From: Stigmatella aurantiaca
Lineage (GTDB): Bacteria > Myxococcota > Myxococcia > Myxococcales > Myxococcaceae
Assembly: GCF_900109545.1 (NCBI RefSeq)
Contig: NZ_FOAP01000012.1
Span: 62,001-126,000 of the forward strand
Direction: 5' to 3'
Length of the DNA stretch: 64,000 nucleotides
Positions 1 through 10,436 of the stretch are shown here, in pieces (position 1 is the first letter of the stretch; each line of letters begins with the position of its first letter). The notes under the pieces were generated by a model. That model worked only from the letters and a program-made list of their open reading frames with translations. It was not told the origin of the DNA and did no database searches. The translations under genes and the position numbers were made by a program.

Positions 1-31
1 TATAAGGATACGCATGCCCCCGGGATGGACA

Positions 32-60
32 GGTAGGATGCGCGCCTCCCCTATCCTACC
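32..60 (-). terminator. inverted repeat at the recG stop
   Basis: GGTAGGAT (32-39) and ATCCTACC (53-60) form an 8-bp stem with a 13-base loop that includes the recG stop codon. No T-run follows on the minus strand within the window, so it is only a candidate transcript-end structure. Confidence 0.3.
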
Positions 61-2783
61 CGGGCCAGCGCCAGACGGCCTTCCCAGCGTTCCTCCAGGG
101 CCTTCACGAGCCCCAGGTGCTCGGGCGCCTGGAGGTGGGCATCGCGTTCGAGAATCTTCCGCGCCTCGATCTGGGCCAGGGAGAGCAGGTCCCCGTCCCG
201 GACGAGGTTGGCCACGGCCAGCTCCGGCAGGCCGCTCTGGCGCGTGCCGAGAAACTCCCCGGGGCCGCGAATCTCCAGGTCCTTCTCGGCGATGACGAAG
301 CCGTCGCTGCTGTGCTCCATCACGGACAGGCGCTCGGTGGACTCCCAGGAGCGCGCGAGGCTGGCGATCAGGAAGCAGAAGCTGATGGCGGCGCCGCGCC
401 CCACCCGGCCCCGGAGCTGGTGAAGCTGCGAGAGCCCGAAGCGCTCGGCGGCCTCGATGACCATGACGGAGGCATTGGGCACGTCCACGCCCACCTCCAC
501 CACGGTGGTGCACACGAGGATGTGAATCTGCCGCTCGCGGAACGCCTCCATCACCGCGTCCTTCTCCTCGGGCTTCATCCGCCCATGGAGCAGCCCCACG
601 CGGGCGTGCGGAAACACCTGCTGGAGCTTCTCCGCGCCCTGCGTGGCGTCCTCCAGGTCCAGCTTCTCGGACTCCTCCACCAGCGGATAGACGATGTACG
701 CCTGGTGCCCCTTGGCGATCTCCGCGCCGACGGCCTCGTACACGCGGGCTCGCTGCTGGGCGTTGAAGACGCGGGTGGACACGGGGGTGCGCCCCGGGGG
801 CAGCTCGTCGATGATGGAGACGTCCAGGTCCCCGTAGAGCGTCATCGCCAGGGTGCGGGGAATGGGCGTGGCGGTCATCACCAGCACATCCGGCGTGGGG
901 CCCTTGCTCATCAGCGTGTGGCGCTGGAGCACCCCGAAGCGGTGCTGCTCGTCGATGACGGCGAGCCCCAGCTTCTCGAAGGCCACCCCGCCCTGGATGA
1001 GGGCATGGGTGCCCACCGCGAGGTGAATCTCCCCCCGGGCCACGGCCTCGCGCACCTCGCGCTTGTGCTTCGCCGTCCCGGCGGCGCTGACCAGCCCCAC
1101 GCGGAAGCCCAGCGGCTCCAGGAGCCGGCGGAAGCTGCGCTCGTGCTGCTCGGCGAGGATCTCCGTGGGGGCCATGACGGCCACCTGGTAGCCGTCCTGC
1201 AACGCGAGCAGCGAGGCCACCACCGCCACGGCCGTCTTGCCCGAGCCCACGTCCCCCTGGACGAGCCGGTTCATGGGCTCGGCGCGGGCCATGTCCTCGG
1301 CCAGCTCGTCCACCACGCGCGACTGCGCGCCGGTGAGCTGGAAGGGCAACGCCCCCCGCGCCCGGGCCATCCGCTCCCGGGAGACATTGAAGGCGATGCC
1401 CCGCTCCGTCTTCACGTTCTGGCGCTTGAGCCCCATGCCGAGCTGCAGGAAGAACAGCTCATCGAAGGCGAGCCGCCGGTGCGCGGGGCTCTGGTGTGAA
1501 TCCAGCGCCTCCAGGTCCGCGGTGTCCGGAGGAAAGTGGATGCTGCGCAGCGCCTCGGGCAGCGTCACCAACCCGAGCCGCTTGCGCAGCGCCTCGGGCA
1601 GCGGCTCCTCGAGCTGCTGGGCGTAGTTCTCGCTCACCCGGGCGGCCACATCGCGGAACGAGCGTTGATCCCCCCGCTCGAAGCCGGGATAGATGGGGAC
1701 GATGCGGTTGAAGTGGACCGAGGAGGACTCCAGATCCTCCGCGGGCTCGATCTCCGGGTGCGCCATCTCCCGGCCGGACATGGAGGCGCGGACCTCGCCG
1801 GAGAGCACGAGCCGCTTGCCCACGGTGAAGCGGCTCTTGAGCCACGGCCCGGCGTGGAAATACGTGGCGGCGATGCTACCCGACGGGTCGGCGACCACGG
1901 CCTTGAAGTAGCGCTTGCCGTTGCGGCCGGCCACGTAGTCCGCCGACTTCACGGTGCCCACGGTGACGCCGCGCCTGCCCGGCTCCAGCCCGGCGATGGT
2001 GTGCAGCTTCCGCCGGTCCTCGTAGCAGCGCGGCAGCAGGAAGAGGATGTCCCCCATGCGCCGCAGCCCCTTCTTGTCGAGGGCATTCAGCAAGCGCGGA
2101 CCGAGCCGCTTGCCCAGCGTCTTGAGCGGCGTGGACAGCGGCCCCGAGCGCGGCGCGATGGACAGCAGCTTCGCCTCGGCGCGGGATTCCTCGGCCCCCG
2201 CCGCGCGCTTGCGCTTCTTGCCCGCGGCGGCCTTCTTCGGTGCGTCGGCCTTTGGCTCCGGCGCCTTCTGCGCGGCCGTGGCTGGAGGCTTCACGGCGGG
2301 GGGCTTCGCGGCGGCGGGCTTGGGTGCGGCCGGAAAGGCCAGCCGCCCGGAGGCAGGGCCCACGGGAGGTGGCTCCGCGGCCTTCCACGGGGGAACGCCC
2401 TCGCGCACGGGCTCGACTTTCGCGGCGGGAGCGCGCTCCGGGACCGGAGCCTCCGGCGCGGCCACGCGGGCCAGCTCGGGGGGAAGCTCCAGGCCACTGA
2501 GCTGAAGCGCGGACACGATGCGCCGCAGCGCGGCCTTGCGGTGCTCCACCTGCGGCGCATCCACGTGGGGCAGCGCGGCGCGGAGCACCGTCAGCGCCTG
2601 GGAATCAACCCCCGAGGCGCCCGCGAGGGCCCGCTCCAGCAGGCCGCGCAAATCCCTCACCGTGGACAGCTGGGCGAAGTCCCGCTGACAGGCGTACCGC
2701 AGAGGCCCTACGAGGCTGACGAGTGGATGGCTCACGTGCGAATCCGAGCGCTCATCGTAAAGAGCGGGGATGACGTTCCGCAC
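51..2783 (-). CDS. recG: ATP-dependent DNA helicase RecG
   Basis: RecG is a superfamily 2 helicase that remodels stalled replication forks and Holliday junctions. The protein (910 aa) has the RecG wedge/OB region at about residues 220-400 and then the helicase core. Walker A GDVGSGKT is at 510-517, the DEQH box at 611-614 and TATPIPRT at 638-645. The usual family length is near 690 aa; the extra length is an N-terminal region of about 200 residues containing a Pro/Ala/Lys-rich stretch (about 110-197) ending in a basic KKRKR patch. The start used here is GTG at 2783. A second in-frame GTG at 2735 (protein beginning SHPLVS after the start) is an equally good candidate because neither has a strong ribosome site. 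The stop codon lies inside a small inverted repeat. Confidence 0.93.
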   Translation of the reverse strand: MRNVIPALYDERSDSHVSHPLVSLVGPLRYACQRDFAQLSTVRDLRGLLERALAGASGVDSQALTVLRAALPHVDAPQVEHRKAALRRIVSALQLSGLELPPELARVAAPEAPVPERAPAAKVEPVREGVPPWKAAEPPPVGPASGRLAFPAAPKPAAAKPPAVKPPATAAQKAPEPKADAPKKAAAGKKRKRAAGAEESRAEAKLLSIAPRSGPLSTPLKTLGKRLGPRLLNALDKKGLRRMGDILFLLPRCYEDRRKLHTIAGLEPGRRGVTVGTVKSADYVAGRNGKRYFKAVVADPSGSIAATYFHAGPWLKSRFTVGKRLVLSGEVRASMSGREMAHPEIEPAEDLESSSVHFNRIVPIYPGFERGDQRSFRDVAARVSENYAQQLEEPLPEALRKRLGLVTLPEALRSIHFPPDTADLEALDSHQSPAHRRLAFDELFFLQLGMGLKRQNVKTERGIAFNVSRERMARARGALPFQLTGAQSRVVDELAEDMARAEPMNRLVQGDVGSGKTAVAVVASLLALQDGYQVAVMAPTEILAEQHERSFRRLLEPLGFRVGLVSAAGTAKHKREVREAVARGEIHLAVGTHALIQGGVAFEKLGLAVIDEQHRFGVLQRHTLMSKGPTPDVLVMTATPIPRTLAMTLYGDLDVSIIDELPPGRTPVSTRVFNAQQRARVYEAVGAEIAKGHQAYIVYPLVEESEKLDLEDATQGAEKLQQVFPHARVGLLHGRMKPEEKDAVMEAFRERQIHILVCTTVVEVGVDVPNASVMVIEAAERFGLSQLHQLRGRVGRGAAISFCFLIASLARSWESTERLSVMEHSSDGFVIAEKDLEIRGPGEFLGTRQSGLPELAVANLVRDGDLLSLAQIEARKILERDAHLQAPEHLGLVKALEERWEGRLALARVG

Positions 2784-2846
2784 GGAATGGAACGGGGGGA
2801 GCGGGCACGGGCCCCCTCCCCCGGTCGCTGCTCCGGCGGCAGTGCG

Positions 2847-3356
2847 TCAGGGGGCCGGGGCGGACTCGTCGTCCTGCGGATCCTCGAAGCGGATGTCCTG
2901 GATCTCGAACTCGCGCTCGCCCCCGGGACTGCGCACCAGGGCCACATCCCCCACGCGCTTGCCGATCAGCGCCCGGGCCACCGGCGAGGTAACGGCGAGC
3001 CAGCGCTTCTTGATGTCGGCCTCCAGCTCGCCCACGATGCGGTAGGTCACCGTCTTGTCGGTGTCCGGATCCAGCAGCACCACGGTGGCGCCGAAGACGA
3101 CCACATCGCCCTTGAGCTTGCTGGTATCGATGACCTCGGCCCGGGCAATCCAGTCATTGAGGTCCAGGATGCGGCCCTCGATGTGGCCCTGCTTCTCCTT
3201 GGCCGCGTGGTACTCCGCGTTCTCGCGCAGATCTCCATGGGCCCGGGCGACCTCGATCTCCCGAGAAATCTTCCCGCGCTCGACGGTCTGGAGCTGCTTG
3301 AGCTCCTCCTTGAGCTTCCGGAGACCGGAGGGGGTCATCGGGATGTTACCGCTCAT
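2847..3356 (-). CDS. greA: Transcription elongation factor GreA
   Basis: GreA binds the secondary channel of RNA polymerase and stimulates cleavage of backtracked transcripts. The 169-aa protein has the family layout: an N-terminal antiparallel coiled coil (about residues 8-80) with the acidic tip region around DLRENAEYHAAKE, then an FKBP-like C-terminal domain (about 85-160). Length is close to the usual 158 aa, with a short acidic tail. ATG 3356 follows a good GGAAGGAG ribosome site. The gene lies 63 bases upstream of recG on the same strand, so the two may be co-transcribed. The leader holds a terminator-like hairpin directly before the ribosome site (separate entry). GreB is less likely, but Gre paralogues cannot be separated with certainty by eye. 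Confidence 0.93.
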   Translation of the reverse strand: MSGNIPMTPSGLRKLKEELKQLQTVERGKISREIEVARAHGDLRENAEYHAAKEKQGHIEGRILDLNDWIARAEVIDTSKLKGDVVVFGATVVLLDPDTDKTVTYRIVGELEADIKKRWLAVTSPVARALIGKRVGDVALVRSPGGEREFEIQDIRFEDPQDDESAPAP

Positions 3357-3377
3357 CGAACCAGCTCCTTCCAGGGC

Positions 3378-3425
3378 AAAAAATAAAAAGGGCCGCCTGC
3401 CGGCACGCCCTTTCCAGGGGCGGCC
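3378..3425 (-). terminator. Intrinsic-terminator-like attenuator in the greA leader
   Basis: Read on the minus strand, GGCCGCC (3425-3419) and GGCGGCC (3397-3391) form a 7-bp GC stem. It is followed at once by CTTTTTATTTTTT (3390-3378), a classic intrinsic terminator. It ends only about 20 bases before the greA start, just ahead of the ribosome site, and downstream of a candidate promoter. It therefore sits inside the greA leader instead of behind a gene. Confidence 0.7.
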
Positions 3426-3453
3426 GGAGAGCGGCTACCGCAAAGCTGCCCCA

Positions 3454-3482
3454 AATGTAGGAGAGCTTTGACTATCGAGCAA
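3454..3482 (-). promoter_or_regulatory. Candidate sigma-70-type promoter for greA
   Basis: On the minus strand TTGCTC (3482-3477), a 17-bp spacer and TACATT (3459-3454) resemble -35 and -10 boxes. The predicted start is near 3447, giving a leader of about 90 bases that contains the terminator-like hairpin. Confidence 0.45.
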
Positions 3483-3553
3483 ACGAAAGCAGCCGGCACG
3501 GCCCGATAAGCGTCTGGGTGTTCGGCGGACAACCAACCCACTAGGCTGGGCGC

Positions 3554-4081
3554 ATGCTGTTGGTTCGCGAGGTCCGGGCCCTGGCGGGCAATCTTCAGAA
3601 AGAGGACTTCCTGCGGCAGGTGGGGCCCTTCGTCCTCGTGCGGCAGCCGCCGGATCCGGTGATGGAGCGGCTGGCGTTGCGGCTCGGGGCGCACCGCACC
3701 CGGGTGGCGCGCGCACAGGCTTCCGCCAAGATGCTCATGGCGGAGCTGCTTCAGCACCTGGATGACCTGAGCGTGGCCACGCTGCCGCCCATCCGGGGCA
3801 GCGAGGAGCTGCAGATTGGCCGCCTGCCCGACAATGATCTCGTCGTGGACGACCCGTCCGTCTCCAAGCGTCACGCGGTGCTGCGCTGGGACGCGCTGGC
3901 GCGCCGGTGCATGCTGACGGACCTGGGCTCACGCAACGGCACGTTGATCAACGCCGAGTACATCCGCGACGCCAATGCCCTCGTGAGCGACGGGGACATG
4001 CTGAGCTTCGGGGATACGGAATTCTGTTTCCTGGAGACGCTCAGTCTCCTGTCGATGTTGCACACCGCGCACTACGCTTGA
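3554..4081 (+). CDS. FHA-domain protein (first of a tandem pair)
   Basis: A 175-aa protein with one C-terminal forkhead-associated domain, a phosphothreonine-peptide binding module. The FHA signature residues are present: GR at 89-90, SKRH at 104-107 and SRNGT at 126-130. The first 75 residues form a conserved lead-in (VREVRAL...FLRQVGPFVLV) shared with the next gene, so the two are tandem paralogues. No membrane segment, kinase or effector domain is visible, so it probably acts as a small cytoplasmic adaptor for Ser/Thr kinase signalling; that role is inferred. It is divergent from greA, with about 200 bases between them. The next gene starts 12 bases after its stop. Confidence 0.85.
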   Translation: MLLVREVRALAGNLQKEDFLRQVGPFVLVRQPPDPVMERLALRLGAHRTRVARAQASAKMLMAELLQHLDDLSVATLPPIRGSEELQIGRLPDNDLVVDDPSVSKRHAVLRWDALARRCMLTDLGSRNGTLINAEYIRDANALVSDGDMLSFGDTEFCFLETLSLLSMLHTAHYA

Positions 4082-4093
4082 GGCACACCCGTC

Positions 4094-4615
4094 ATGATCT
4101 CCGTCAAGGAATTGCGAGCACTCGGCACGTCGCTCCCGCTGGACGCCTTCCGCCGCCAGCTGGGCCCCTTCGCGCTCATCCAGCGCCCCCCCACCGAGGA
4201 CCCCACGGCGGGGGCCATCACCACCCGGGTGGCGAACCCCAAGGTGATTGAACAGGGCATCGTCTCGCTGCTGTTCGAGTTCGACGAGCTCATCGTCGCG
4301 CTGCTGCCCCCGCTGGAGGCCACCGACGCGCTGTCCATTGGCCGCATCACCGGCAACGAGCTGGTGGTGGAGGATGGCTCGGTGTCCAAGCAGCACGCGC
4401 GGCTGCAATGGAACCAGGCCGAGCGCCGGTGCACGGTGAAGGACCAGGGCTCGCGCAACGGCACCTTCCTCAACGGCACGCTCATCATGGACCGGGAGGT
4501 GACGCTGCGCGACGGCGACATCCTGAGCTTCGGGCACGTGCAGTTCTGGTTCCTGCTCACCGAGACCCTGCACGCGCGGCTGCGCGGGGAGCTGGCCGGC
4601 GGGCGCCAGAAGTAG
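4094..4615 (+). CDS. FHA-domain protein (second of a tandem pair)
   Basis: A 173-aa paralogue of the preceding gene with the same two-part layout: an N-terminal block (VKELRAL...FRRQLGPFALI) and a C-terminal FHA domain with GR at 83-84, SKQH at 98-101 and SRNGT at 120-124. All residues normally needed for phosphothreonine recognition are present. The 12-base spacing implies one transcript. Divergence between the copies is greatest in the linker between the lead-in and the FHA core, which may give them different partners. It is convergent with the monooxygenase gene downstream. Confidence 0.85.
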   Translation: MISVKELRALGTSLPLDAFRRQLGPFALIQRPPTEDPTAGAITTRVANPKVIEQGIVSLLFEFDELIVALLPPLEATDALSIGRITGNELVVEDGSVSKQHARLQWNQAERRCTVKDQGSRNGTFLNGTLIMDREVTLRDGDILSFGHVQFWFLLTETLHARLRGELAGGRQK

Positions 4616-4642
4616 CGGGGCGCCCGCGCACGGCCGTGCGGC

Positions 4643-5794
4643 TCAAGGGGCGGAGAAGGCGATCCTGCTGCGCATCTCCTGCGTCACGTGCGTGGGGGCC
4701 GTCGCCTTCAGGAGCTTCTCCCGCACCCAGCACGCGGCGGGGTTCGTCCACTGGCCAATCTGGCCAATCCGGTAGGACCGGGTGACGAATTCATTGGCCC
4801 GCTTCACGCGCAGGGCCTGGTAGCGGCCGAGCGCCGCGGGCAGCTCCGCCTCCACGGCCAGGCACCGCGCGAGCACCACGGCATCCTCCACGGCCTGGCA
4901 GCCCCCCTGCCCCATGTTGGGCGTCATCGGGTGCGCCGCATCGCCCAGGAGCACCACGCGCCCCTTCGTCCACTGCTTGATAGGGGGCCGGTCGTGGATG
5001 TCCGTGCGCAGGATGGCCGAGTTCGGCGTGTTCTGGATGAGCTGCGGAATGGGGGCATGCCATCCGGCGAAGCGCTTGAGCAGCTCCGTCCGGGCATCCG
5101 GCTGGTCCACGCCGTGCTCCGGGGCGTTCGCCGTGGCGAACCAGTACGTCTGCCCGTTGCCAATGGGGACGACGCCGAAGCGGACCCCCGGCCCCCAGCT
5201 CTCGGAGGTGTAGTCCGGACGCACCCCGCCGGACACCTCGCACACCCCGCGCCAGCTCGTGTAGCCCGAGTAGCGCGGCGCGGGCTCTTGCAGCATCTGC
5301 GCCCGGACCGCCGAGCGCAGGCCGTCGGCGGCCACGAGCAGATCGCCCCGGACTTCGGTGCCGTCCGCGAGCTTGACGAAAACCCCATCGGGCCCGTCCC
5401 GGTAGCCCTCCACCTTGGCCCCGAGCGTCAGGCAGTCGTCTCCCACCGCCTGGTGGAGCACGTCCTGGAGCAACCCCCGGTGGAGGGTGATCATGGGCGC
5501 GCCCGCCGCCTCGGACACCTCCCTCACCATCATGGAGTTGAGCGTTTCGTTCTGGGGCGTGAGGATGCCGCCCGCGTTGATCTGCTGCCCGGCCGCGGCC
5601 ACCTGAGAATCAATGCCCAGGGTGCGGAAGGCCAGCATCGCATTGCTTTGCATCGAGATGCCCGCGCCCACCTTCAGCATGGCGGGAGCACGCTCGAAAA
5701 TCCTGAAAGCGATTCCCGCCCGGCGCAGGGCCACCCCGAGCGTGAGTCCACCAATACCACCGCCCGCGATGAGCACCGTGAATCCAGTCTTCAT
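4643..5794 (-). CDS. FAD-dependent monooxygenase (aromatic hydroxylase family)
   Basis: A 383-aa group A flavoprotein monooxygenase of the salicylate/6-hydroxynicotinate hydroxylase type. These use NAD(P)H and O2 to hydroxylate an aromatic substrate. The N-terminal Rossmann motif GGGIGG is at residues 11-16. The central DG motif (VAADGLRSAVR) and the C-terminal GD motif (LLGDAAHPMTPNMGQGG) are both intact. The reading frame stays open far upstream, but ATG 5794 is the natural start because the FAD-binding strand begins directly after it. The substrate cannot be read from the sequence. It stands alone, between an FHA gene (convergent) and a lipoprotein gene (divergent). Confidence 0.9.
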   Translation of the reverse strand: MKTGFTVLIAGGGIGGLTLGVALRRAGIAFRIFERAPAMLKVGAGISMQSNAMLAFRTLGIDSQVAAAGQQINAGGILTPQNETLNSMMVREVSEAAGAPMITLHRGLLQDVLHQAVGDDCLTLGAKVEGYRDGPDGVFVKLADGTEVRGDLLVAADGLRSAVRAQMLQEPAPRYSGYTSWRGVCEVSGGVRPDYTSESWGPGVRFGVVPIGNGQTYWFATANAPEHGVDQPDARTELLKRFAGWHAPIPQLIQNTPNSAILRTDIHDRPPIKQWTKGRVVLLGDAAHPMTPNMGQGGCQAVEDAVVLARCLAVEAELPAALGRYQALRVKRANEFVTRSYRIGQIGQWTNPAACWVREKLLKATAPTHVTQEMRSRIAFSAP

Positions 5795-5894
5795 GCGGGC
5801 GGACTTAGCACCAGCCCGCGGGCGCGTCCCGATTCTTTCCCAGGCCTCCTCTGGCATTGCCGGCGGCGCTCCATTGGGCTTTCCTAGAACGCCA

Positions 5895-7826
5895 ATGCGC
5901 TCATGGAACCGTGCCGCCCGGGCCCTGGCCGGGATGCTGCTGCTGCTGCTGGCCATCGCCTGTGGCGAGCCGCAGGAGATGGTGGTCGTCCACGAGGAGC
6001 TGGGGCTCCGCGAGGAGCCGCACCCCGAGGCCCCCGTGGCGGAGAAGCTGCCCCGGGGCTCCCGGCTGAAGGTACAACCCGCCCGCCCCTGGGAGACCGA
6101 GGGGTGGCGCCGGGTGATGACCCCCTCTGGCATGCGCTGGACGACGCTCGAGGGGCTCGCCCCATTTCCGCTCCAGGGTGAGCTCCGCTTCGTCTGGCAG
6201 GAGGAGCTTGCCGTCCATTCCAATCCGGACCCTTCCGCGGAGACCGTCGAGACGCTGAAGCTGGGCGACGAGGTACACCTGCTGGCCACCCCGGTGCCGG
6301 GCGTGGCCGGGTACACCGGCGTCATTCGCCAGGGCACGCTGCTGGGCTTCGCGGACACCTCCGCGCTCCTCCCCCAGAAGCCCACGGCGGAGCTGCTCCG
6401 GGATGAAGTCCGCGCGCGGCTCAAGCAGGGCGACTTCGCCCAGGCGATGCGCTGGGCCCGGTCCGCCCGCGCCCTGGCCGAGGGCACGGGGCGCAGCGGA
6501 GCGCTCGTCGATGCGCTGGAGCGCGCCGGCACGGAGCCCGCCTCGCTCCAGACGGAGCTCGACTTCTCCGAGAAGGCCCGCGGCGCGGAGCCGCCCCGCG
6601 TGGGGGCCAAGGGCTGGGTCATCCCCTCCCGCGTCCACCTGCGCGAGGGCGCGGACCTGCGGGACAGCATCATCACCGTGCTGTCGGCGGACGCGGCGGT
6701 GGAGGTGCTGGACATCCAGGCCCCCTGGGCGCACGTGGCGCTCGTGACGCCGCAGACGCCCTGGATGGCGGTGGACCTGGGGGACTTCGCCGAGGTGCGC
6801 GGCGGCAAGGTCCAGCGCGCCTCCTTCTTCACCCGCCAGCGCGGCCAGAGCCGGGGCTACCTGCCCATCGCCGCGCTCCAGGCCCAGCGCCTGAGCGCCA
6901 CCGGGCAGCTCACCCAGGCGATGGCGCTGGAGCCCGGCGCCGCCCGGCTCGAGCTGCTCAAGCGCGCCGTGGCCCTCGCAAAGCCGGACGAGCGCGCCCA
7001 GGTGGCCCCGGCGCTCATCGACGCGGCCTTCCAGGAGGAGCGGTACCGGCTGGCGGTGGCCGCCGCCCTGCGGCTGAAGGACCCCGGCGCCCCGGCCCCC
7101 TCCGTCCGCAAGGAGCCGAAGCTCGACGGCGTGACCAGCCTCTATGGCTGCACGGGCCACCCCCTGGAGGCGCGCGTGGAGCCGGTGGAGTTCTCGCTGG
7201 GCATGAAGCTCGCGAAGCCCCAGGGCTCCGTCTGCGCCCAGGTCTCCGGCCTGGAGTCCCCATGCGATGTGTGCCTGTCGGACCTCTCCGACTACGATGC
7301 CGAGGCGCATCAGCACATCCTGCGCAACAAGGCGGGGGTCGACCAGATGCTCGGCGAGCACGAGGAGATCATCACCCAACATTTGAAGGACTCGTCGCGG
7401 CTGGAGAACCTCTACGCCAAGCCCTCGCGGATGCGGGTGAGCGTGAAGCCCGGCTCGCAACCCGGCCTCTCGCTCTACCTCTTCGAGCTGCCGCTGGAGG
7501 TGAACCGCTACCAGGACAAGCCCGTGCTCACCCCGGCCTTCCGGGAGGCGCGCATGCTGGAGGCCCTCCTGCCGCTTGGCCCGGCCGAGGGCCGCTGGGA
7601 GTACTGGATAAGCACCCTCCAGTGGGAGGACTCGGCCCATGGCGCGATCCTCGGGATGGACGCCACGGCGGCCTGGAAGGTCATGCAGGACTTCGCCCAG
7701 GCCCTGAAGAAGACGCCCGAGGCGTTCCTCGAACGCAACGAATACGAGGGCGTGGTGTACACGTTGCACCTCTCCCGGCACTGCGGAAAGTGCCCCACCC
7801 GTCAGAAGGTCCGTCCCGGTCGGTGA
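5895..7826 (+). CDS. Predicted lipoprotein with SH3-like repeats
   Basis: A 643-aa protein with a lipoprotein signal: a short basic start, a Leu-rich core and the lipobox LAIAC with Cys about 23 residues in. After it come segments resembling bacterial SH3 domains (about residues 28-80, 100-150 and 245-290, each with a LREG/LREE-type turn). A helical middle and a C-terminal region with four cysteines (around YGCTGH and PCDVCLSDL) follow. SH3-like domains often bind peptidoglycan or peptides, so an envelope role is likely but unproven. The reading frame extends upstream, but ATG 5895 puts the lipoprotein signal at the N-terminus. I do not recognise the C-terminal half. Confidence 0.75.
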   Translation: MRSWNRAARALAGMLLLLLAIACGEPQEMVVVHEELGLREEPHPEAPVAEKLPRGSRLKVQPARPWETEGWRRVMTPSGMRWTTLEGLAPFPLQGELRFVWQEELAVHSNPDPSAETVETLKLGDEVHLLATPVPGVAGYTGVIRQGTLLGFADTSALLPQKPTAELLRDEVRARLKQGDFAQAMRWARSARALAEGTGRSGALVDALERAGTEPASLQTELDFSEKARGAEPPRVGAKGWVIPSRVHLREGADLRDSIITVLSADAAVEVLDIQAPWAHVALVTPQTPWMAVDLGDFAEVRGGKVQRASFFTRQRGQSRGYLPIAALQAQRLSATGQLTQAMALEPGAARLELLKRAVALAKPDERAQVAPALIDAAFQEERYRLAVAAALRLKDPGAPAPSVRKEPKLDGVTSLYGCTGHPLEARVEPVEFSLGMKLAKPQGSVCAQVSGLESPCDVCLSDLSDYDAEAHQHILRNKAGVDQMLGEHEEIITQHLKDSSRLENLYAKPSRMRVSVKPGSQPGLSLYLFELPLEVNRYQDKPVLTPAFREARMLEALLPLGPAEGRWEYWISTLQWEDSAHGAILGMDATAAWKVMQDFAQALKKTPEAFLERNEYEGVVYTLHLSRHCGKCPTRQKVRPGR

Positions 7827-7890
7827 GCCCCCTTTAGGCATCCCTGAAGTACAGGTTTTCTTCGCTTCCGGCCGGCCTCACGTTGCGGCC

Positions 7891-8919
7891 ATGAACACCA
7901 GCGCCGACCCGTCCCGGTACCCCAAGGACACCCGGGCGCGCGCCCACAGCATCACCTACGCCATCCGGAAGGAAGAGCACCGCCTCCGGATGCGGCACGC
8001 CTGGCTCCAGTACCAGAGCCAGGCGGGCCTGGTCTTCCTGCTGGCCAGTCTGGCGGCCCTGGCGCTCATCGCCTCGCTCTACGCGCGCGGGCACCTCGCC
8101 GGGTGGTTGGCCCTTCCGCTGATGGCGCTGCCGCTCTCCGTCATTCACGAGCTCGAGCACGATCTCATCCACCACCTCTACTTCCGCCACCAGCCCTGGC
8201 TGCAAAACCTCCTGCTGGGGGTGACGTGGGTGTGCAAGCTGGGCATGAACCCGTGGACGCAGCGCGAGCTGCACCTGCACCACCACAAGGTGAGCGGCCA
8301 GCGCGAGGACGTCGAGGAGCGGATGCTGGGGCTGGGCACCCGGAGCCTGTTCCTGCGGCTGGTGCTTGCCACCTCGCCCCTGGGCAGCACGCTGCTGCTG
8401 CTGGGCATCCGCAAGGACGCGCCGGGCTTCCCGCCCAGGCAGATCCTCGCGGGGCTCCTGCCCACGAGGCTGTTCGCCGATCTGCTGCTGCTCTTGGCCC
8501 TGGCCTACGGGCTGACGGGCAGCATGCATCCCGGAGGCCCCCTGCCCGCCTGGGGCTGGCCGTGGGTGAGCGGCGCCGTGACGCTCTGGGTGCTGCCCAA
8601 CCTGCTGCGCCAGGCCTGCCTGACGCTCATCTCCTCCTACAGCCACTACTACGAGGACATCCCCCAGGGAGATGTCTTCTTCCAGAACCAGATCCTCCAC
8701 CACCCGCTGGTGTGGCCGCTCAACCTCTTCACCTTCAACTTCGGCAAGACGCACATCATCCACCACTTCGTGGCCAACCAGCCGTTCTACCTGCGGCAGA
8801 TGGTCGCGTCCGTGGCGTTCGAGGAGCTGAAGAAGCAGGGCGCGCGCATCAATGACTTCAGCGTCATCTCGCGCGCCAACCGCTGGGGCAACCCGCGCTA
8901 CTCGATCTTGAACTCCTGA
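7891..8919 (+). CDS. Membrane fatty-acid desaturase family protein
   Basis: A 342-aa integral-membrane di-iron enzyme of the fatty-acid desaturase/hydroxylase superfamily. Three histidine clusters are visible: HELEHDLIHH beginning at residue 86, HLHHH at 128-132 and HIIHH at 288-292, matching the HX3-4H, HX2-3HH and HX2-3HH pattern. Hydrophobic spans at about 45-65, 70-90, 155-175, 190-210 and 222-245 fit the four-helix topology. It could desaturate or hydroxylate an acyl chain or a specialised-metabolite substrate. The 3' end overlaps the convergent hydrolase gene by 22 bases. No clear ribosome site precedes ATG 7891. Confidence 0.85.
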   Translation: MNTSADPSRYPKDTRARAHSITYAIRKEEHRLRMRHAWLQYQSQAGLVFLLASLAALALIASLYARGHLAGWLALPLMALPLSVIHELEHDLIHHLYFRHQPWLQNLLLGVTWVCKLGMNPWTQRELHLHHHKVSGQREDVEERMLGLGTRSLFLRLVLATSPLGSTLLLLGIRKDAPGFPPRQILAGLLPTRLFADLLLLLALAYGLTGSMHPGGPLPAWGWPWVSGAVTLWVLPNLLRQACLTLISSYSHYYEDIPQGDVFFQNQILHHPLVWPLNLFTFNFGKTHIIHHFVANQPFYLRQMVASVAFEELKKQGARINDFSVISRANRWGNPRYSILNS

Positions 8920-10436
8920 CCGAACGGCCAGAGGAAGCCCGGCGTCCGGACCACCTCGGGGGCACCGCGCCCCTTCCAGCGCATCGCCTCGCCGGGCCGC
9001 AGCAGCAAGGCCCGGGGCCCCTGGGCCCCGCGCACCTGCGCCAGCCGCTCCGGGTACGGGTCCGCGTCCGGGTTCTCGTCCAGGGTGCTGGCCCCCGTGA
9101 CGGGCTCGCCGGGGTAGCCCGGGTAGCGCGGCCCCATGCCCTCGCGCCAGTACCAGGGCGCCCCGCCGTCCGCGCACGGAACGACGTAGCGGGCGCCGAG
9201 CAGCGCGCCGAACGCCAGCGCCTCCTCGGGCCCGGCCATGAGCTGCTGGGGCTCGGTGAGGTGCTCCAGGGGCACATCCACCAGGAAGGCATCCAGCGTG
9301 GAGAAGCCGAAGAAGAGCGGCTTGAGCCGGAAGCCGCGCACGCCGCAGAACAGCACATCCACGGGCCCCTCCTCGCGCACGCGCCGGCACACCTCACGCA
9401 TGTCGCCGCGCACATCGTGCCCCGCGTCCGCGAAGAAGGCCGCAGAGAAGCCCGGGGCCCGCACGAGCCAGGTGTTCCCCTCGTTGAAGAGCTCCCCGTA
9501 GAGCCCCTTCTGGTCCGTGGGCTGCTCGCCATGGAACGGCAGGGCCCGGACGGTGAGGTCTCCCACCTGACGCTCCTCTCCCCAGCGCAGGGGCTCCACG
9601 CGCGTGAAGCCGAGCTGCTCCAGCCGCAGCACACAGTCCGTGGAGAAGAGGCTCTCGCGCGCCACCGCCGGGACGAAGATGCGCGTGTCCCTGGGCAGCC
9701 GCAGCAGGGAGCCCAGGTGGAAGTGGTCCCCGTGCGAGTGGGTGATGAGCACCGCGTCCACGGGCCCCAGGTCCCCCGGCTGCATCGGCTGGTACTCCGG
9801 CCCATCCACCCCGCTCGAGGGCCGGAAGTACGGGTCCACGAGGACGCGCCCCTGGCGCCCCGCCACGAGCACGGTGTTGTGGCCCACGAAGAGCGCCCCG
9901 GGCGTGGGTACCGTCACGGGGCCCGGGTGGCGGACGAGCCAGCCTGCCCCCGCCATGTCCGCGAGCAGCGCGCCCACCGCGGGCGCCGCCGAGAGCGCGC
10001 GAAGCTCCGCCCGGCTCGCCCCGCGCGACAGGCAGGCGAACAGCTCCGAGAGCACCGGCCACTCGGCCTGGGACACGGGAACATCGAGCCCGAGCTGCTC
10101 CTGGCGCAGGTGCAGCACCCGGGGACGGTGACGGCGGGCGTCCGGAAAGAGCACCTCGTGCCGGAGGACCCGGCGGCCCCGCCGCCGCTTCCCGTCCTCA
10201 CAGAGCGCGGCGTAGCGCGGGGTGTCCTCCAGCCACCGCACCAGGGCCCGGGCCTCCTGCAGCGCCCGGGAGGGGCCCAGCACCGCGAGCTGCCGCTTCA
10301 GCGCGGCGTGGGCCCGGCGCACGGGCCGCGAGGTGGGACCCTGGATGCTGCACCCCAGGTCTTCATGGTGCTCGGCCTCGGTCCGGGCCGAGGCGAGCAC
10401 CGCCAGGCTGACGCCCCGGTGAAGGGTGAGCTTCAT
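8898..10436 (-). CDS. Metallo-beta-lactamase-fold hydrolase with N-terminal helical/winged module
   Basis: A 512-aa protein. The MBL-fold hydrolase domain occupies about residues 180-440, with the metal motif THSHGDH at 232-238, a later His in LPFHGEQ and an Asp in FFADAGHD. The first 170 residues are not part of the fold. Residues about 120-168 (LSELFACLSRGASRAELRAL... to AGAGWLVR) look like a winged-helix or PqqD-like segment, a module often seen next to peptide- or carrier-modifying enzymes. The function is unknown. Its end-to-end overlap with the desaturase gene suggests linked evolution but not co-transcription. Confidence 0.75.
   Translation of the reverse strand: MKLTLHRGVSLAVLASARTEAEHHEDLGCSIQGPTSRPVRRAHAALKRQLAVLGPSRALQEARALVRWLEDTPRYAALCEDGKRRRGRRVLRHEVLFPDARRHRPRVLHLRQEQLGLDVPVSQAEWPVLSELFACLSRGASRAELRALSAAPAVGALLADMAGAGWLVRHPGPVTVPTPGALFVGHNTVLVAGRQGRVLVDPYFRPSSGVDGPEYQPMQPGDLGPVDAVLITHSHGDHFHLGSLLRLPRDTRIFVPAVARESLFSTDCVLRLEQLGFTRVEPLRWGEERQVGDLTVRALPFHGEQPTDQKGLYGELFNEGNTWLVRAPGFSAAFFADAGHDVRGDMREVCRRVREEGPVDVLFCGVRGFRLKPLFFGFSTLDAFLVDVPLEHLTEPQQLMAGPEEALAFGALLGARYVVPCADGGAPWYWREGMGPRYPGYPGEPVTGASTLDENPDADPYPERLAQVRGAQGPRALLLRPGEAMRWKGRGAPEVVRTPGFLWPFGQEFKIE

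Follow-up and report, generated by a model that had tools for sequence, protein, structure and literature searches.

The greA locus

We analysed a window of 64,000 nucleotides from Stigmatella aurantiaca, and positions are those of the window unless another locus is named. The gene greA lies on the minus strand (2847..3356, with its ATG at 3356) and encodes a protein of 169 amino acids with the Pfam domains PF03449 and PF01272. The next gene downstream is recG (51..2783, minus strand). Upstream of greA, and divergent from it, is an FHA-domain gene (3554..4081, plus strand). Together with its neighbor it makes up a tandem pair encoding FHA-domain proteins (3554-4081 and 4094-4615, both on the plus strand).

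On the same strand as greA, and upstream of its start codon, a hairpin and a T-tract follow a promoter-like element (TTTGCTCGATAGTCAAAGCTCTCCTACATT, 3454..3483), which is a sequence match only (-35 TTGCTC, 17 nt, and -10 TACATT, at 3482-3454). Judging from the -10 element, transcription would start near 3447, which would leave about 12 nt of RNA (3436..3447) ahead of the hairpin. The hairpin is of the terminator type, with a GC stem, a length of 44 nt (3392..3435) and a predicted energy of -32.0 kcal/mol. Two nucleotides (CC) beyond it is the T-tract, TTTTTATTTTTT (3378..3389), which ends 21 nt ahead of the ATG, and then the Shine-Dalgarno sequence GGAAGGAG (3365..3372), which is the same or similar in the leaders of the family that have a promoter. 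An alternative stem near the T-run, GGCCGCC/GGCGGCC (3425-3419 with 3397-3391), uses the same bases as the main hairpin.

The first-pass annotation had described a GC stem and a T-rich run about 20 bases before greA, between a promoter-like element and the ribosome site, and this arrangement is present, with a gap of 21 nt. The run is real, at 12 bases instead of the 13 that had been counted. An RNA of about 70 nt had also been proposed as the product of termination, and this size agrees with the layout: from a start near 3447, we would predict 65-70 nt.

Because the FHA-domain gene is divergent, the hairpin cannot serve as 3' terminator for a neighbor on the minus strand, and we ruled out a terminator of the upstream gene. 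In the window, a short reading frame runs to the greA start, but we rejected a leader peptide, as another leader, L006, has not retained the start codon of this frame (by eye). No Rfam family reached its gathering score in the window.

Hairpin and T-tract compared with background

The window contains 14 T-rich sites on its two strands (T score of at least 3.5). The site in the greA leader has the top T score (5.18), and its hairpin is also the most stable, at -32.0 kcal/mol versus -24.6 kcal/mol for the runner-up. The same scoring recovered the GraL terminator of E. coli, which was our positive control (T score 5.07, -18.6 kcal/mol). By itself, the energy of the hairpin is not unusual in DNA this rich in GC (z of -0.66, or -1.03 against dinucleotide shuffles). 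The exceptional part is the pairing of the hairpin with the T-run, not the hairpin energy. A consensus scan of positions 1-9000 gave neither the greA-leader terminator (the scan has a loop limit of 8) nor any promoter.

TTTTTNTTTTTT has a single match in the genome of 9,365,767 bases (9.37 Mb), and this match is the greA leader. Across the 96 genomes of the family (f1), 45 have at least one match. Three relatives in the genus have 1, 3, and 2 matches, one of which falls in the greA leader in each genome, and TTTTTNTTTTTT is absent from the entire genomes of the other three relatives. The genome has no second copy of the greA leader (the next best hit has E of 0.085), so we ruled out a repeated mobile hairpin.

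Conservation in the genus and the family

The stem is not missing from close relatives, an absence that the first-pass annotation had named as grounds for rejecting its reading. All seven greA leaders of the genus can fold into a hairpin (-24 to -34 kcal/mol), but it is joined to a T-tract in only four of the seven genomes. In the three without a T-tract, the hairpins are at -24 to -29 kcal/mol, and two of these are no better than shuffles (z of -0.40 and -0.36). Where the T-tract is present, it is identical at 12 of 12 positions in the four genomes, and the upper stem is altered on both arms with pairing retained. At the 4-fold sites of greA, two of the T-tract genomes differ from the window's genome by 22% and 28%, and the third differs by 5%. 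The intergenic region is well conserved throughout the genus, so the T-tract does not stand out sharply by its conservation.

We found greA in 94 of the 96 genomes of the family, which includes Myxococcus, Corallococcus, and others, and we read all 94 upstream regions. A run of at least 10 T in 11 occurs in four of them: the window's genome, its near twin, and two other members of the genus. A promoter-like element (TTGACC or TTTGCC type, then TACATT type) is present in 65 leaders. These 65 have a mean fold z of -1.56 against dinucleotide shuffles. For 43 of them the value is below -1, and for 23 it is below -2; for the leader in the window it is the -1.03 given above. Most of the leaders with a promoter have a hairpin without a strong T-tract. 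With looser criteria for a terminator (T score of at least 3.0 and a hairpin of -12 kcal/mol or lower, within 85 nt), we found sites in 13 of the 94 leaders: 13 of the 65 with a promoter and none of the other 29.

In the predicted consensus stems, 7 of 14 pairs have changed on both sides in the group of the window's genome, as have 4 of 10 in Myxococcus-Corallococcus and 5 of 17 in the genus groups g3/g7; these counts come from few and related sequences, with the structure predicted from the same alignment and with no control. The hairpin has been lost from three leaders, L053, L054, and L055 (genomes G024, G026, and G021), of which one is from Corallococcus and the others are from the same genus group. 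These retain the promoter and the ribosome site, with a short leader of about 25-35 nt from the promoter to the start codon, and relatives alongside them have the hairpin. The leader hairpin is therefore dispensable in these genomes.

Frequency of predicted terminators ahead of greA in the order

Across the order, we found greA in 142 of 145 genomes and took 60 greA regions of up to 16 kb. From outside the family, these include 44 of 48 hits (all but G096, G097, G103, and G121), and from within it, 16 of 94; the 16 were hand-picked, including three genomes with the T-run, and the other 78 were left out of the control test. A site that satisfies our terminator criteria lies within 110 nt in 32 of the 60 greA leaders versus 27 of 502 other ORF starts from the same loci (odds ratio of 20; the control starts are those of other ORFs of at least 130 amino acids, guessed by a simple rule rather than annotated, and the statistics ignore the relatedness of the genomes). 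The counts for greA leaders and for other starts are 12 of 22 and 4 of 170 in Anaeromyxobacter (f3), 7 of 9 and 1 of 70 in f2, 8 of 13 and 16 of 103 in f4-f9, and 5 of 16 and 6 of 159 in the window's family. In three of the 32 positive leaders (L205, L220, and L241), the counted site is 72-95 nt upstream and not beside the ribosome site. From the background elsewhere in the loci, the same criteria would predict 0.004 to 0.061 sites per leader.

A looser search of 46 of the 60 loci (L232-L245 were left out) found a hairpin with a T-run in 38, and 36 of these are among the 44 from outside the family. Among the eight loci without one are L202-L204, where coding sequence seems to reach greA (by eye, in unannotated sequence). 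From the sites predicted in the 60 loci, terminators ahead of greA look frequent in this order. In a set of genome contigs that was counted at greA loci only, terminator-like sites precede greA in 21 of 80 loci.

Outside the order, six greA leaders (L148, L149, L159, L160, L171, and L172) have a hairpin and a T-run 19-38 nt before the greA start. Four of the six have an upstream ORF on the same strand.

The hairpin of the other families

The 36 greA-leader hairpins from outside the family, when aligned, have GCGGCCG...CGGCCGC arms in common. These leaders had been selected for a stable hairpin before the pairing statistics were computed: 92.2% of their cells are paired (89.2% in shuffles), and 16 cells are changed on both sides versus 7.9 in shuffles, with none of 500 shuffles as high. 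In the same alignment, the number of pairs with a change on both sides (58 of 500 shuffles) and the number of pair types (300 of 500) are not unusual.

A model built from these 36 leaders (R1) has matches at E of 0.01 or lower in 132 of 145 genomes. Among the matches listed, many are away from greA, which weakens the idea of an RNA fold that is specific to greA. We inspected 12 such matches, and four lie just after the stop codon of an ORF on the same strand; the other eight are without clear context. The position after a stop codon is the usual one for a terminator. The occurrence of the R1 stem away from greA, sometimes after stop codons, implies that it may be a common shape for intrinsic terminators in this group. 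It may well be so, and this would support termination as its function and would count against a fold found only at greA.

R1 has 15 matches in the whole window, and the greA leader is not among them. Scored alone, the window's leader obtained 7.8 bits, and its opposite strand obtained 7.7 bits. Among the loci of the family that were scored, one greA leader stood out: L026, from another genus (G001), with 12.3 bits at an E of 0.53. By eye, this leader looks intermediate. It is plausible, from their positions, that the hairpin in the window and those of the other families have a shared ancestry, and possible that the T-tract was gained separately in the window's group.

R1 also scores 20.8 bits (E of 0.0019 for that search) at L170:1405-1459, which is the greA leader on a contig titled as uncultured Kordiimonas (alphaproteobacterial). 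Another terminator-like hairpin, GCGGGCGGTCCCGGG...GCCCGC followed by TTTTT, is found away from greA at L258:1442-1499, which is contig 35 of the window's own genome, and at L259. This hairpin is alike in the own genome and in G037, and matches with comparable scores are present in G036 and G038.

A proposed attenuator and its alternatives

We propose that the hairpin and T-tract are an intrinsic terminator that serves as an attenuator in the greA leader, yielding an RNA of 65-70 nt and lowering the amount of greA mRNA. From the predicted features we consider this to be quite likely, and many greA transcripts probably end early. RNA polymerase would start near 3447, and the hairpin would form once about 55 nt had been transcribed. 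On the U-tract, a share of the complexes would release an RNA with its end near 3380, while the remainder would read through into greA, and perhaps also recG. We infer the start site, the termination, and the resulting small RNA from the layout and the comparisons above, and likewise the proportion of read-through and any feedback by GreA. The roughly 12 nt ahead of the hairpin leave little space for an antiterminator, so we expect that the strength of the terminator is either fixed or tuned by factors. We found no antiterminator alternative in the 12 lowest-energy folds that were printed, all of which retain the terminator stem. Read-through would then probably be set by general factors, such as elongation speed, NTP supply, NusA/NusG, and possibly GreA, rather than by an RNA that binds a ligand.

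GreA might also increase termination at its own leader and so keep its level constant, with the short RNA perhaps acting in trans. The gene is the same as in the GraL system of E. coli, the layout is similar, with a short stretch of RNA ahead of the hairpin, and such sites are in excess in the greA leaders of the order. PMC6829880 reports that autoregulation needs catalytically active GreA and the GraL sequences in cis, but also that the effect was seen in vivo and not in vitro. Also counting against it, 81 of the 94 leaders of the family lack a site by the terminator criteria. We regard this feedback as possible but rather doubtful.

We considered two further readings. The hairpin could be a 5' stabilizer of the greA mRNA, with the U-tract as a landing site for the ribosome (S1) before the Shine-Dalgarno sequence and no real termination, and a leader of this type, with a hairpin and a U-tract, is known from rnd of E. 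coli. The U-tract is indeed directly ahead of the ribosome site, and the many promoter-bearing leaders of the family that have a hairpin but no strong T-tract suggest that a use beyond termination is possible. However, the gap of 2 bases between stem and T-tract is what a terminator has, the same ribosome site is retained where the T-tract is missing, and forms of the related model with a hairpin and T-run were found after stop codons (4 of 12 places). We think that a stabilizer is unlikely. It is far less likely still that the 5' end of the leader masks the ribosome site by pairing with the Shine-Dalgarno sequence across the hairpin. The minimum-energy fold of the window's leader does pair CAGCUUU with GGAGCUG, but across the 65 leaders the mean energy of such pairing is -6.39 kcal/mol, versus -6.37 kcal/mol for pieces drawn at random from the same upstream DNA. 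On average, a fraction of 0.49 of the controls were equally good (0.12 for the window's leader itself).

Relation to known greA leaders

The first-pass annotation had compared the leader to GraL of E. coli as a similar arrangement in a distant group. This comparison holds, as both have an intrinsic terminator (a predicted one in the window) between the greA promoter and the start codon, and greA attenuators had already been reported from Proteobacteria, bacilli, and Clostridia in the main text of PMC2965389. The RNA ahead of the hairpin is 19 nt in GraL, according to the account in PMC6829880, versus about 12 nt predicted here. The short RNAs are 37-59 nt in E. coli and would be 65-70 nt in the window, and the distance from the start of the T-tract to the ATG is about 101 nt in E. 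coli but 33 nt in the window. Two promoters, imprecise ends, and dependence on GreA are reported for GraL of E. coli only. According to PMC6829880, the GraL terminator lets about one third of transcripts through, and GreA must be catalytically active to repress, an effect that was not reproduced in vitro. The Rfam model of the enterobacterial greA leader (RF01769) had no match in window 3200-3600 up to an E of 10, and the E. coli control scored 127.5 bits.

In the main text of Naville and Gautheret 2010 (PMC2965389), greA/rnk ranks seventh in a list of gene families that have 5' terminators, and its occurrences range from Proteobacteria to Clostridia. These leaders have a premature terminator before greA, as is predicted for the window's, but that text gives a clear antiterminator in each case, whereas the window's leader has little room for one. 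The rimP-leader of the same text is also alike: it is a short conserved terminator hairpin with no visible antiterminator, ahead of an operon of transcription factors. It belongs to another gene, and its 5' arm is G-rich and its 3' arm C-rich, in contrast to the GCGGCCG/CGGCCGC arms of the hairpins from the order's other families. The main text of PMC2965389 contains none of the terms Myxococc-, Anaeromyxobacter, Stigmatella, and deltaproteobacteria, and we found no literature on a myxobacterial greA leader among the open-licence papers listed. Attenuators of greA are thus known already from Proteobacteria to Clostridia, and the new part is their frequency in this order.

We tentatively suggest, as a reading that could easily be wrong, that premature termination before the ribosome site is an ancestral control of GreA levels in this order, without an antiterminator RNA. 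The full terminator would be found in the Anaeromyxobacter family, the other families, and the Stigmatella-like group, whereas in many genomes of Myxococcus, Corallococcus, and their relatives it would have become weaker, leaving a hairpin whose T-tract is poor. If so, then together with E. coli, bacilli, and Clostridia, this would mean that greA was repeatedly placed behind its own terminator because GreA tunes termination. GreA rescues stalled polymerase, and its dosage must be in balance with the other factors that share its channel in the enzyme. GraL in E. coli is a hard-to-classify case of feedback via a leader terminator. The natural variants among close relatives (with the full T-tract, with the hairpin only, and with no hairpin) would be a comparative system for the role of the terminator and the action of GreA.

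The window's own genome has further matches to GreA at C21:102753-103223, C5:392107-392523, and C1:787149-787370, with 40%, 37%, and 26% identity. One of the three has a stop within the matched stretch.
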